Origin: Echinicola rosea
GTDB lineage: Bacteria; Bacteroidota; Bacteroidia; Cytophagales; Cyclobacteriaceae
NCBI RefSeq assembly: GCF_005281475.1
Contig: NZ_CP040106.1
Coordinates: forward strand, 1,245,501 to 1,309,500
Length of the DNA stretch: 64,000 bases
Direction: 5' to 3'
Positions 27,965 to 32,178 of the stretch are shown in pieces. The notes beneath the pieces were generated by a model. The model did not search any database, was not told where the DNA came from, and saw nothing but the letters and a program-made list of their open reading frames with translations. Both the position numbers and the translations under genes were made by a program. Positions within the stretch are counted from its first letter, which is position 1. Each line of letters opens with the position of its first letter.

Positions 27965-29740
27965 TTGGCAAAAGATATCATAACCCGGTTTTTAATCTGG
28001 CGGCTCAAGCATATTAGCACTAAGAATTTTATGCTGATTCTTAGTGGAGTCATCGGTATTCTTACGGGATTAGCCTCTGTGATGCTTAAAGTTTCGGTGC
28101 ATTCCATCCAGCATTGGTTGATTGAGGGTTTCCAGATTGAATATGCCAACTTCTTTTTTATCCTTTATCCCCTGATTGGTATTTTTCTTACATACGTGGT
28201 GGGCAAATACATTGTCAATGACTACGGCGGCCATGGTATTCCAGAGATACTTTATAATATTTCCAAAAAGAAAAGCCTGATTCCCAGGGTAAAGATGTAC
28301 AGCCGTGTGTTCACTTCTTGCCTCACAGTGGGGCTGGGAGGATCGGTCGGGTTGGAGGCACCGATTGTGGTGACGGGATCAGCCATTGGCTCCAATTCCG
28401 GCTTATTGATGCACCTTAACGCCAAAAAGCGGAATATCCTGATTGGGTGTGGTGCGGCAGGAGGGATATCGGCCATCTTTGGTTCGCCCATTGGAGGGGT
28501 GATTTTTGCGATAGAAGTTATCCTGATGGAAGTAAATACGGGAGCCTTTATTCCCTTGTTGATCGCTTCTGTATTGGGGTCGCTGACCACCATGGTGCTT
28601 ATCGGAAATGATCCTATTTTCTCATTTAACCTATCCGGAGAATTTATAGCGGCACATACTCCATATTACTTGGTGCTGGGGGTATTGACCGGTTTGGTAT
28701 CAGTCTATTTTATCAAAGCCGTGTTGAGGACAGAAAATCTACTGGAGAAACAGTCCAATCCCTGGCTGAAGATTTTGATCGGGGGCGCAGTACTCGGACT
28801 TATTATCTTCTTTTTTCCTCCGATTTACGGCGAAGGTTATAATACGCTAAACTCGCTTATCTTGGGAGATCCGGCGGTATTGCTAAACAGGAGTCCATTC
28901 TTCTCCGAGATCAACAATACCTACTTTATATTATTCTATCTCCTGATGATCATCTTTGCGAAACCCATCGCTGCGGCATTGACGATCGGCAGTGGTGGTA
29001 GTGGAGGGATTTTCGCACCGTCTTTGTATGTAGGAGGGATTACTGGGTTCCTTTTTGCTTTTGCCAATAACTTCTTTGGGATCTATATTCCTATTCCGGT
29101 GGCCCATTTTACCTTGGTAGCCATGTGTGGAGTGATGAGTGGTGTACAGCATGCGCCACTCTCTGCGATATTCCTGATCGCAGAAGTGACTGGGGGTTAT
29201 GAGCTGTTTGTGCCTCTTATGCTCGTTTCGGCCATTTCTTTGGCCACTACGAATTACTTTGATAAAAACTCCTTGTACAAGAATCAGTTATTGGAACAAG
29301 GAAAGCATATCCCTGAAACCAAAGATGAAGAAGTACTTGGCCTGATCGATATTCGTCGGATCATGGAAAAGGATTTGCTGCCGATTCACCCGGATGCGGT
29401 ACTCAAGGATCTCTGTGGCTTGGTCAAGCTTTCCAATCGTAATATCTTCCCCGTTGTCGATGAAAAAGGAAATTTGAACGGTATCATTACCCTGGATGAC
29501 ATCCGGGATATTATGTTTGATCGGGAGAAGCAAAACGAAGTACAGATCAGCAAATTGATGCACAGCCCACCTGATACAATCCAGCCTTCTGAAAGTATGC
29601 GGGAGGTGATGGATAAATTTGAGCGCTCTGGCGCTTGGAATTTGCCCGTGGTGGATAATGGTATCTATCTAGGATTTATCAGTAAATCACGTATCTTCAA
29701 TGCCTACCGGACACGGCTGATAAGACAACAGCGGGAGTAA
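27965..29740 (+). CDS. ClC-family chloride channel/exchanger with C-terminal CBS domains
   Basis: 591 residues with about ten or more membrane helices. The three selectivity-filter regions are visible: GGHGIPEI, GGSVGLEAPIV and GGSGGIFAPSLYVG. The Glu of GLEAP sits where the gating glutamate of E. coli ClcA lies, favouring a Cl-/H+ exchanger over a channel (inference). Two CBS domains (about 455-585) follow, with VDEKGNLNGIITLDDIRDIM. The only start in frame before the first helix is TTG at 27965. An ATG at 27927 opens another frame (MNLNKLIINFVPFWQK) that would suit the family N-terminus if one frameshift were present. Confidence 0.9.
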   Translation: MAKDIITRFLIWRLKHISTKNFMLILSGVIGILTGLASVMLKVSVHSIQHWLIEGFQIEYANFFFILYPLIGIFLTYVVGKYIVNDYGGHGIPEILYNISKKKSLIPRVKMYSRVFTSCLTVGLGGSVGLEAPIVVTGSAIGSNSGLLMHLNAKKRNILIGCGAAGGISAIFGSPIGGVIFAIEVILMEVNTGAFIPLLIASVLGSLTTMVLIGNDPIFSFNLSGEFIAAHTPYYLVLGVLTGLVSVYFIKAVLRTENLLEKQSNPWLKILIGGAVLGLIIFFFPPIYGEGYNTLNSLILGDPAVLLNRSPFFSEINNTYFILFYLLMIIFAKPIAAALTIGSGGSGGIFAPSLYVGGITGFLFAFANNFFGIYIPIPVAHFTLVAMCGVMSGVQHAPLSAIFLIAEVTGGYELFVPLMLVSAISLATTNYFDKNSLYKNQLLEQGKHIPETKDEEVLGLIDIRRIMEKDLLPIHPDAVLKDLCGLVKLSNRNIFPVVDEKGNLNGIITLDDIRDIMFDREKQNEVQISKLMHSPPDTIQPSESMREVMDKFERSGAWNLPVVDNGIYLGFISKSRIFNAYRTRLIRQQRE

Positions 29741-30222
29741 GATAAAATTATATTCTGTTTCGTATCTTATCCACGGTTGCCCACATTGGGTAAAAAGGTA
29801 TAAAATTCATTTACAGCGTTTTATCCACAAATTAGAATTATCCAATACCGATTTATATTACTGGTATTCAGTAGGTTATAGCTGCTTTATATGAGTATGT
29901 GGATAAGTGTGGATAATTGTGGATAAATTTTGGCCTTAATTTTTGGAGCTTTTTTCTGACAGTATAGGGCGATTTTTTGTTGCCAAATATGTCCTTTTGA
30001 CCTTTACAAATCACGAAAGATTTTTCCAAAATCAGAATAAAATATTTAAGTAAAGCTCCAGATGAAGCAAAACTTAGCACAGCACTTTGCCGCTTGGGCC
30101 GTAAAGTACCCGAGAGACCTAGCCCTAGAAGGGCGATACATGATGTATAGCCATGTGTAAGTCCTGTAGTAGCATACCTCATCCTACGCATGAATTGACT
30201 GGGAATATACTCGTCAATGCTG
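29741..30222. other. AT-rich intergenic region with a DnaA-box cluster (candidate oriC)
   Basis: DnaA-box sequences TTATCCACA occur at 29821-29829 (plus), 29898-29906, 29908-29916 and 29918-29926 (minus, as TGTGGATAA), and a one-mismatch copy TTATCCACG at 29767-29775. The three minus-strand copies are spaced exactly 10 bp apart, on one helix face. The surroundings are AT-rich (29795-29900 and 29926-30055), as a duplex-unwinding element would be. The 3' part (30085-30190) has small hairpins. There is no gene. A regulatory DnaA-binding site is the alternative to an origin. Confidence 0.65.
30122..30147. repeat. Small hairpin pair near the DnaA-box region
   Basis: GCCCT-AGA-AGGGC (30122-30134) is followed after two bases by the palindrome TACATGATGTA (30137-30147), within a stretch (30085-30190) of higher GC than its surroundings. 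It reads like a REP-type element and no coding potential is evident. Confidence 0.4.
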
Positions 30223-30693
30223 CTAAATCAGTTTCAGGTTTTTACAATTTGGGATTTGACAGTCACCATAGAGTACCAAGGAATGGCTGGTGATGGCTGA
30301 GGAAAACTCTTCGCCCATGGCTTCCTTGATCAGGTTTATCCGTTCGTCGGAAAATTCACGGATTTTGCGGCACTGGTTACAGACATGGTGGTCGTGGTGC
30401 TTGTAGGTGAGTGCCTGTTCGTATAAGGCCACTTTGTCCTTAAATTGGTGCTTGACAGCGAGGCCGCATTCCACCAGCAGGTCCAAGGTATTGTAGATCG
30501 TGGCACGACTGATAGAATAACCTTTGTTTCTCATCAGTAAAAAAAGTCCCTCTACATCGATATGCTCATCTTGGGGCAAGGCGTAGAGTTCATCGATCAC
30601 CGAAAACCGTTCAGGTGTCTTTCTACTTCCCTGTCTCAACAAGAAATTCTCAAAAATTTTCTTTGCTTTATCTACAATTGACTTTTCTGCCAT
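30223..30693 (-). CDS. Fur-family metal-dependent transcriptional regulator
   Basis: 156 residues. N-terminal winged HTH (about 20-90) with SRATIYNTLDLLVECGL as the recognition region, then a dimerisation domain with the His-rich metal site YKHHDHHVCNQCRKI and a second cysteine pair, CQIPNC, which together make the structural Zn(Cys)4 site. Whether it senses Fe (Fur), peroxide (PerR) or Zn (Zur) is undecided. katG lies 12 kb away and cannot be linked to it by sequence alone. It stands alone next to the candidate oriC. Confidence 0.92.
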   Translation of the reverse strand: MAEKSIVDKAKKIFENFLLRQGSRKTPERFSVIDELYALPQDEHIDVEGLFLLMRNKGYSISRATIYNTLDLLVECGLAVKHQFKDKVALYEQALTYKHHDHHVCNQCRKIREFSDERINLIKEAMGEEFSSAITSHSLVLYGDCQIPNCKNLKLI

Positions 30694-30927
30694 AGTTTTT
30701 TATTTACTAAAAAATAAAGATGGTGCATTTTTTGGATTATGTCAAACGGAGGGCATATACAGAGGTTTATTATTGCTAATTTGCTTTCAATCTAAATTAG
30801 TATTGGGGAAATTTTGGCATATTTCATTGGCGTTTTAGCAAGCCAATATCCTAAATCAATGCAAAATCCTATGGTGAAAGCTTAACCTTGTTTTTATTTT
30901 AAAGCTATAGTGCTAAATTGGTTAGGT

Positions 30928-32178
30928 ATGACCCTGACAAGACTATTTATTCTTTTTACTGCAGCCAATTTTTTTATTAGCTCACCACTATGGGCACAAG
31001 TGCCTGGCTTTTATTTTAAAGAAGACCAGAAGCGGGTCAATATTCCTTTTCTAAACTACAATAACCTAATTATCGTCCCACTTTCTATCAATGGTGGGCC
31101 AGAGCTAAATTTTTTGTTGGATACAGGAGTGAAGTCAAACATTCTGTTCAGTAAATCCATTGGTGACGAGATAGGGCTATACTATACACGTACACTAAAT
31201 CTGATGGGTGCGGATGGCCAGTCCGTACTTACGGCACTGGTATCTCCAAATAATTATTTTGATGTAGGTCCCGTGGAAGGAAAGGTGCAGGCAATACTGG
31301 TATTGGAAGAAGATTTTTTGGAATTGGAGCGGGTAATTGGCGTGCCCATCCATGGCATCGTCGGATATGAATTTTTTAAGTATAATCCAGTCAAAATCAA
31401 CTACGATACCGACATGATCACTTTTTACCGACAAGATCGACTAAAATGGCGTCCATTTGGCTATAGGAAAATAGGATTGGATTTTGATAATTATAAACCC
31501 TATGTAAAAAGCACCATAGATCAGATCGGTGGCGAGGTGATTCATGGTAAATTACTGATCGACACCGGAGCCAACCACGGATTGATGCTTAACCGAGAAA
31601 CCTCTGATGAGATCGTTCTGCCTCCAGAAAATATCGAAACGGATCTTGGCCGTTCGTTGGGTGGGGACTTATATGGGTATGCTGGAAGGGTAAAAAAATA
31701 CAGCCTGGGCAATTTGAACTTTAGAAAGGTCATTACATCCTATCCAGATGAAACGGAGTTTTCGTCCATCATTATCGAATCAGGAAGGCTTGGCAGCCTA
31801 GGATCCGATATATTGTCCAGGATGACCATGATCATAGATTATCCTAGAGAAAGGATGCTTTACAAAAAGTCAGGAGACTTTCATAAACCATTTGAATACG
31901 ACATGAGTGGGTTGAAAATACGACTTACTAGCGCTGAGGAGAGACGCTATTATATCAGCAGTGTTCAAGAGGATTCTCCTGCTAGCCGCCAAAATTTCAA
32001 AGCGGGAGATGAAGTGCTAACCATAAATTTACTCCCTGTTGAATATTGGGACCTGTCGGAAATCAATGATTTATTACGTTCAGAGCCTGGGAGGAAAATA
32101 TTACTTACCATTAGGAGAAATATCAACGGTATAATGGTGGAGCTGGAAAAGGAAATTACACTGAAAAAACAAATTTAA
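30928..32178 (+). CDS. Secreted retropepsin-like aspartyl protease with PDZ domain
   Basis: About 416 residues from the ATG at 30928, which begins a signal peptide (LFILFTAANFFISSPLWAQ); a GTG at 30910 is also in frame. Two aspartyl-protease motifs lie in one chain: LNFLLDTGVKSNILF and GKLLIDTGANHGLML. Each is followed by hydrophobic strands typical of a retropepsin lobe, so the chain may fold as an internal pseudo-dimer. A PDZ domain (last 90 residues, YYISSVQEDSPASRQNFKAGDEVLTIN) follows. Substrate unknown. The histidine kinase gene follows by about 100 bases on the same strand. Confidence 0.88.
   Translation: MTLTRLFILFTAANFFISSPLWAQVPGFYFKEDQKRVNIPFLNYNNLIIVPLSINGGPELNFLLDTGVKSNILFSKSIGDEIGLYYTRTLNLMGADGQSVLTALVSPNNYFDVGPVEGKVQAILVLEEDFLELERVIGVPIHGIVGYEFFKYNPVKINYDTDMITFYRQDRLKWRPFGYRKIGLDFDNYKPYVKSTIDQIGGEVIHGKLLIDTGANHGLMLNRETSDEIVLPPENIETDLGRSLGGDLYGYAGRVKKYSLGNLNFRKVITSYPDETEFSSIIIESGRLGSLGSDILSRMTMIIDYPRERMLYKKSGDFHKPFEYDMSGLKIRLTSAEERRYYISSVQEDSPASRQNFKAGDEVLTINLLPVEYWDLSEINDLLRSEPGRKILLTIRRNINGIMVELEKEITLKKQI

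Follow-up and report, generated by a model that had tools for sequence, protein, structure and literature searches.

A conserved non-coding DnaA-box element near, yet apart from, the probable replication origin of Echinicola rosea: a putative DnaA-control locus

The window analysed here is a 64,000-nucleotide stretch (C1:1245501-1309500) of the single 6,064,527-bp contig, C1, of the Echinicola rosea genome (G000). Within it a ClC gene and a fur-family gene converge on a gap that holds five DnaA boxes in 160 bp (C1:1275267-1275426). Re-reading positions and strands bears out the original prediction of four perfect TTATCCACA boxes and one single-mismatch copy at 29767..29926, with three of the perfect boxes in tandem on the minus strand at a 10-bp pitch (29898, 29908 and 29918). 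The features are as follows, in window coordinates; member counts refer to the 26 aligned members of the element described below.

27965..29740, + strand: ClC chloride-channel family gene (Voltage_CLC and CBS domains), the usual, not obligatory, neighbour of the element
29767..29775, + strand: weak outer box TTATCCACG, one mismatch; in 11/11 Echinicola it reads TTATCCAC(G/C/T) and stands exactly 54 bp before box A
29821..29829, + strand: box A, a perfect DnaA box; perfect in 22/26 members, one mismatch in 4/26
29854..29878, no strand: central palindrome of 25 bp (consensus TAANNNNYTGANNNTCARNNNNTTA) that ends 19 bp short of box B; 2 of its 14 defined positions differ here
29898..29906, - strand: box B, perfect in 26/26 members
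29908..29916, - strand: box C, optional; perfect in 7/26, one mismatch in 2/26, absent in 17/26
29918..29926, - strand: box D, perfect in 18/26, one mismatch in 8/26
30223..30693, - strand: Fur-family regulator gene, convergent with ClC

A mechanical 107-aa ORF (29868-30191, - strand) overlaps boxes B-D. No ORF of at least 70 aa is listed at the matching place in the other ten Echinicola, and because the 107-aa frame lacks a counterpart there we treat the gap as non-coding, in agreement with the earlier description. The window holds four further perfect boxes (12217 -, 15712 +, 21857 - and 46492 +) rather than the two first counted; the chance rate given by the reversed control is about 0.65 per 64 kb. 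Chromosome-wide, perfect TTATCCACA occurs 119 times versus 62 for the reversed control (100 of the 119 places were listed), and the tandem TTATCCACA-N-TTATCCACA is confined to the cluster: across all 6,064,527 bp the 1-bp-spaced doublet is found twice, both times there. This genome-unique tandem, the excess of 119 over 62 and the recovery of the element in 88 genomes against 0 for the reversed control (see below) exclude a chance origin of the cluster.

The locus had been put forward as a candidate chromosomal oriC or a strong DnaA-binding locus. The latter description is well supported by sequence; the former is not: a better oriC candidate is found ~64 kb leftward, beyond the window. GC skew was sampled over about 1.2 of the 6.06 Mb (40 evenly spaced 20-kb samples and the window, with 1.01-1.41 Mb contiguous). 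It is negative in all samples to 1.05 Mb, positive from 1.20 to 3.90 Mb and negative again from 4.05 Mb. Over the contiguous part, the raw cumulative minimum falls at 1,123,132, and a shallower second low at ~1.215 Mb is followed by a mostly rising curve. A ~58-kb segment (~1.108 to 1.167 Mb) is inverted relative to the related genome G003, and reversing it in silico shifts the minimum to 1,214,594. From the skew, and from the contiguity in G003 of a zone of DnaA boxes described below, we infer that the inversion arose in the E. rosea lineage. The minimum had been expected at the gap itself; the cluster, at 1.275 Mb, is away from the corrected switch point.

The candidate oriC is the gap at 1,211,395-1,211,719, behind an operon of mnmG, a methyltransferase gene and a gene for an Ig-like protein. 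Directly upstream of mnmG, 4.5 kb from the gap, are four tandem parS-like sites (C1:1,206,707-1,206,881; L011:6707-6881). Four such sites also stand beside the matching gene block in G003 and in a second relative, G006. None lies near the cluster, which also has no origin genes nearby, and the 400 kb scanned hold one other match, with two mismatches, at 1,198,360. The skew of these relatives fits the mnmG gap as well: in G003 (200 kb fetched) the cumulative minimum is at ~1.225 Mb and the Ig-like protein gene ends at 1,225,510, and in G006 (200 kb fetched) the skew changes abruptly at 1.345 Mb, next to a gap at ~1.347 Mb, with the formal minimum at ~1.36 Mb (a fit to within ~13 kb) and the ClC cluster ~76 kb inside the negative-skew arm. 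The mnmG gap contains ten one-mismatch boxes and no perfect box. Aligned across 11 Echinicola and G011, it shows ten box columns, each filled by at least 3 and at most all 12 of the sequences, and it closes with a nearly invariant AT-rich block, TTACCCACAAATCCACA...TAATAAC...ATAGTTTTTT. By their letters, frame and polarity aside, the TAA and TAG triplets of this block are reminiscent of DnaA-trios, for which the accessible text of PMC5742627 gives the consensus TA(A/G). Among loci of the Ig-like protein in relatives, 28 of the 30 fetched (39 genomes matched) have a 400-bp stretch with a box score of at least 4, counting 3 per perfect and 1 per one-mismatch box; L113 and L118 have no such stretch. 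The dnaA gene itself is at C1:506, 1.2 Mb away. No second Bac_DnaA-domain match, and hence no Hda-like paralogue, is seen in the genome. With the skew switch, mnmG, its four parS-like sites and the conserved AT-rich gap with its many boxes all ~64 kb to the left, we conclude that the cluster is very probably not oriC.

Comparison with related genomes, proposed in the original prediction as a check, reveals the same architecture elsewhere and suggests that the cluster is a separate conserved element, in which box A is followed after 76-78 bp by the facing boxes B-(C)-D, with the 25-bp palindrome between them. We read 28 ClC loci of at least 40% identity (L063-L090, the E. rosea locus included), leaving out two paralogues of 41-45%. 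The element lies downstream of ClC in 21 of the 28; ClC stands without it in G015, G020, G022, G030 and G036, and the loci of G018 and G026 stop at a contig edge. Together with L125 (Marinoscillum), L126 and three loci found by pattern (G113, G148 and G230), these make up the 26 aligned members. The A-B spacing is 78 bp in 12 members, 77 bp in 11 and 76 bp in 3, and the B-D spacing is 20 bp by construction of the member search. Information per column reaches 1.6-2.0 bits in box A, 2.0 in B and 1.3-2.0 in D; linker columns that do not belong to the palindrome mostly stay under 1 bit. The element is 106 bp long from A to D and 160 bp with the outer box; three members of genus g31 also have a weak outer box, 52-53 bp before A. 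L126 (PBTY01000067.1) belongs to a metagenome bin labelled Rickettsiales, a doubtful label since its ClC is 57% identical to that of Echinicola and is accompanied by the same element.

A scan of the family, Cyclobacteriaceae (Cytophagales), requiring perfect A and B boxes and allowing a relaxed D, recovers the element in 88/295 genomes and 39/84 genera, once per genome, and 0 times with the reversed control. This exact-match pattern is absent from the other 207 of the 295, some of which hold the element with a mismatch in box A (G021, G024). Across the phylum, Bacteroidota, the strict pattern occurs in 4/395 genomes, all within the nine family members sampled there, and is absent from 391/395, five of those nine among them.

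The palindrome occupies its fixed place in 25 of the 26 members, G016 being the exception. Of the 88 matches of the family scan, 21 were already in the alignment and 67 were new; 23 of the new ones were returned as loci and scored as a held-out set, and the other 44 are printed strings, left unscored, among which G466 seems by eye to be palindrome-less. In all 23 held-out loci the best palindrome score falls at the predicted place, with a mean there of 12.35 of 14 versus 4.77 elsewhere in the spacer. An RNA hairpin formed by the palindrome was rejected, as arm pairing in 25 members is no better than in shuffled columns, and no Rfam family reaches its cut-off in 29500-30950. We regard the palindrome as the probable site of a putative dimeric protein. 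With at most one mismatch, TAANNNNYTGANNNTCARNNNNTTA is found at 23 sites of the E. rosea genome versus 3 for the reversed control (for example C1:2135814, 5390720 and 5783509); the element's own copy, with two mismatches, is outside these 23. Nineteen of these genomic sites were examined: within 300 bp, none has a perfect DnaA box and 14 lack even a box with one mismatch. The palindrome protein would therefore have other roles, and the genomic family is a candidate set of sites for a regulator or nucleoid protein.

The genes around the element are less constant. A fur gene is found no more than 1.5 kb from the end of ClC in 10/11 Echinicola and in 0/19 other stretches tested, and the right-hand neighbour is variously fur, a transglycosylase gene or another gene. 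The E. rosea ClC is 91% identical to those of Echinicola pacifica and E. arenosa, the closest named relatives. In the held-out set, ClC is within 1.5 kb of the element in 15/23 loci and not found within that distance in 8/23, which weakens the idea of a tie between the two. For seven of these eight loci (all but L198), ten flanking genes were tested; five are unassigned, and the others include genes for MazG and GcvP and thioredoxin-like and FAD-binding ones. At L193 MazG directly precedes the element, and in the window MazG precedes ClC, an arrangement that looks as if ClC had been lost. A promoter or terminator explanation was also rejected: the three promoter-like matches in 29700-30300, two of which overlap the element, compare with 1.8 expected and are not above shuffles, and two terminator-like matches (30055-30093) fall outside the element.

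In all 15 members with both features on one contig, drawn from related species, the element is 19-299 kb from the oriC gap. Eight of these contigs are of chromosome scale (G000, G003, G004, G006, G008, G010, G023 and G033) and give 58-299 kb; the other seven distances are biased small, because in incomplete genomes the sharing of a contig favours short distances. ClC is ~2.5 Mb from the oriC-side gene in G022 and ~156 kb away in G020, and in both it is without the element. In being a single-copy, non-coding, oriC-proximal cluster of DnaA boxes outside oriC, the element has the placement expected of a datA-like locus.

DnaA boxes are also abundant beside the candidate origin itself. Outside the window, C1:1,105,000-1,200,000 (95 kb; L044-L049) contains 33 perfect boxes. 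The sampled background, from which 1.00-1.42 and 3.90-3.93 Mb are excluded, predicts 1.1, and an even distribution of all 119 predicts 1.9. No other 9-mer is as enriched as TTATCCACA in this zone, which in E. rosea is split, relative to G003, by the ~58-kb inversion. Mechanical ORFs of at least 90 aa enclose 25 of the 33 boxes; mutS, a gene that reads as radA-like from its domains, M14 and M48 peptidase genes and a DNA-alkylation-repair gene are among these ORFs. Twenty of the 30 boxes alignable with G003 are identical there, whereas 6.3 would be expected from same-frame 9-mers nearby, and 0 of 200,000 simulated draws reached 20; by comparison, identity is 29% among 9-mers matched in composition and 42% among one-mismatch boxes. 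In the reverse direction, 20/31 G003 boxes are kept in E. rosea versus a 22% background. Against the G006 genome, in which 21 of the 33 boxes are unalignable, 9 of the 12 alignable boxes are identical versus a 9% background. Beside their own oriC gaps, 31 boxes lie in 48 kb in G003 and 20 in 40 kb in G006. In G023 the ~147 kb from oriC gap to element hold 10 boxes, mildly above the 2 to 3 expected, and no dense zone is evident there or in the listed part of G022.

The excess of boxes near oriC beyond composition, together with their conservation, speaks for selection on DnaA binding across tens of kilobases beside oriC in Echinicola. It also suggests a DnaA-titration zone of the E. coli type; by analogy, titration would be the best explanation, as proposed for E. 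coli, where boxes enriched near oriC are so read in the accessible text of PMC12371093. That enrichment was described there for degenerate motifs in wide windows, whereas here 33 perfect boxes fall in 95 kb and single boxes are kept from one species to another. A second, small box-rich stretch, L057 (C1:3,913,505-3,926,044), is situated near the replication terminus and has 8 perfect boxes over 12.5 kb. Its first three boxes, the ones compared, are identical in G004 (3) and in G003 (2); in G006 one is alignable and differs, and in G010 no match was found. Two other samples, L031 and L032 (C1:4.20-4.22 and 4.35-4.37 Mb), have ~35% G+C versus 40-48% in the other samples and are possible foreign islands.

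In E. coli, datA, the DnaA-ATP hydrolysis locus, is intergenic and needs boxes 2, 3 and 7 together with an IHF site that has boxes on both sides at a spacing that matters; initiation is disturbed when it is relocated to the terminus region (accessible text of PMC10950094, PMC4585315 and PMC5742627). The element is alike in being non-coding, intergenic and outside oriC, with boxes at a constrained spacing flanking a putative central protein site; where datA has its IHF site, the element has the fixed-distance palindrome (25/26 and 23/23). It differs in that this site is a 25-bp palindrome rather than a recognised IHF site, in the 10-bp pitch of its B-D boxes, and in its length of 106-160 bp versus 262 bp for the minimal datA as described. 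Spacing also differs from the 2-3 bp between paired boxes that E. coli DnaA is described as preferring (PMC11317965, in part): neighbouring boxes of the B-C-D group are separated by 1 bp where C is present, and B and D by 11 bp where C is missing. Box clusters of Bacillus subtilis and Streptomyces are likewise outside oriC and are described in a review (PMC5742627) as datA-analogous and as repressing untimely initiation; they belong to other phyla, and the accessible part of that review mentions no palindrome. In B. subtilis, losing all six clusters leads to early initiation, yet clusters with significant roles were not identified there, according to the accessible text of PMC5295017.

The boxes, their fixed geometry, the palindrome, its conservation and that of the boxes, the variable neighbours, the ori-proximal position and a better oriC elsewhere are read from the DNA. 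Based on these, we consider it fairly probable, by analogy, that the element is a negative DnaA-control locus that works like datA with a different partner protein, which is not to claim membership of datA itself. We favour this reading because boxes facing across a fixed protein site match the descriptions of datA. We propose that DnaA would bind box A and, facing it across ~77 bp, boxes B-(C)-D, and that a dimeric protein on the palindrome would bend or bridge the DNA such that DnaA on both sides meets. Copied soon after initiation, the locus would by its doubling take up DnaA, inactivate it, or both, and so help to block a second round. DnaA binding, the palindrome protein, looping and the negative sign of control are in this scheme what we infer.

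Geometry alone does not tell inactivation, as by datA, from reactivation, as by DARS, and the opposite sign of control has therefore to be considered. On a DARS-like locus DnaA-ADP would gather on the facing boxes and release ADP, promoting initiation. As described in the accessible text of PMC4585315, DARS1 and DARS2 of E. coli have a three-box core in non-coding DNA, and DARS2 needs nucleoid-protein sites; the three near-obligatory boxes of the element would suit such a core. This likeness is by description, and the layout, with boxes on either side of a central protein site and little freedom of spacing, resembles datA rather (PMC10950094, PMC4585315, in part), so we judge a DARS-like role unlikely. 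A site of chromosome organisation or segregation, built from DnaA boxes and a nucleoid protein and without effect on the level or nucleotide state of DnaA, would agree with the element lying less than 300 kb from the oriC gap in the 15 genomes for which this distance is available and with the family of ~23 genomic palindrome sites. Four parS-like sites already stand beside mnmG, however, and the strict conservation of the boxes points to DnaA; we hold this role to be very unlikely.

The place of the element, usually behind ClC, could also mean that it controls a neighbour (ClC, fur or the right-hand gene), with DnaA and the palindrome protein as transcription factors or as a roadblock, and in several other genera the right-hand gene faces away and leaves room for a promoter. 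Such control is quite unlikely given that both Echinicola neighbours point toward the element, that the neighbours change and the geometry does not, and that ClC can be absent. As for the cluster being the chromosomal origin itself, the earlier proposal, it does hold clustered boxes in AT-rich non-coding DNA and outscores every other box cluster in the 400 kb contiguous, with four perfect boxes versus none in the mnmG gap. We nonetheless find it highly improbable: the skew switch, the parS-like sites and a conserved multi-box gap coincide at mnmG, 64 kb off, and in G010 and G148 the element is ~300 kb from the mnmG-type gap.

Returning to datA-like negative control, we suggest tentatively, and with rather less than even confidence, that the element represents a DnaA-control locus of a new class, the counterpart of datA-IHF in this Cytophagales family, in which convergent boxes at a fixed 76-78 bp enclose the palindrome of a putative dimeric architectural protein. 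It would act together with the zone beside oriC and its dozens of selected boxes, in a genome with one Bac_DnaA-domain gene and no Hda-like paralogue. In the literature on DnaA boxes, oriC or datA in Bacteroidota, no such element is described at the level of titles and abstracts, which is weak evidence of novelty with subscription papers mostly beyond reach.

To our knowledge, how re-initiation is blocked in bacteria beyond the E. coli and Bacillus models is largely open. The 106-bp element of fixed geometry, present in 39 of the 84 family genera sampled, offers a direct handle on that control. The zone of conserved boxes beside oriC provides a natural test of the DnaA-titration model, and several independent sequence signals now place the probable oriC of a Bacteroidota genus.
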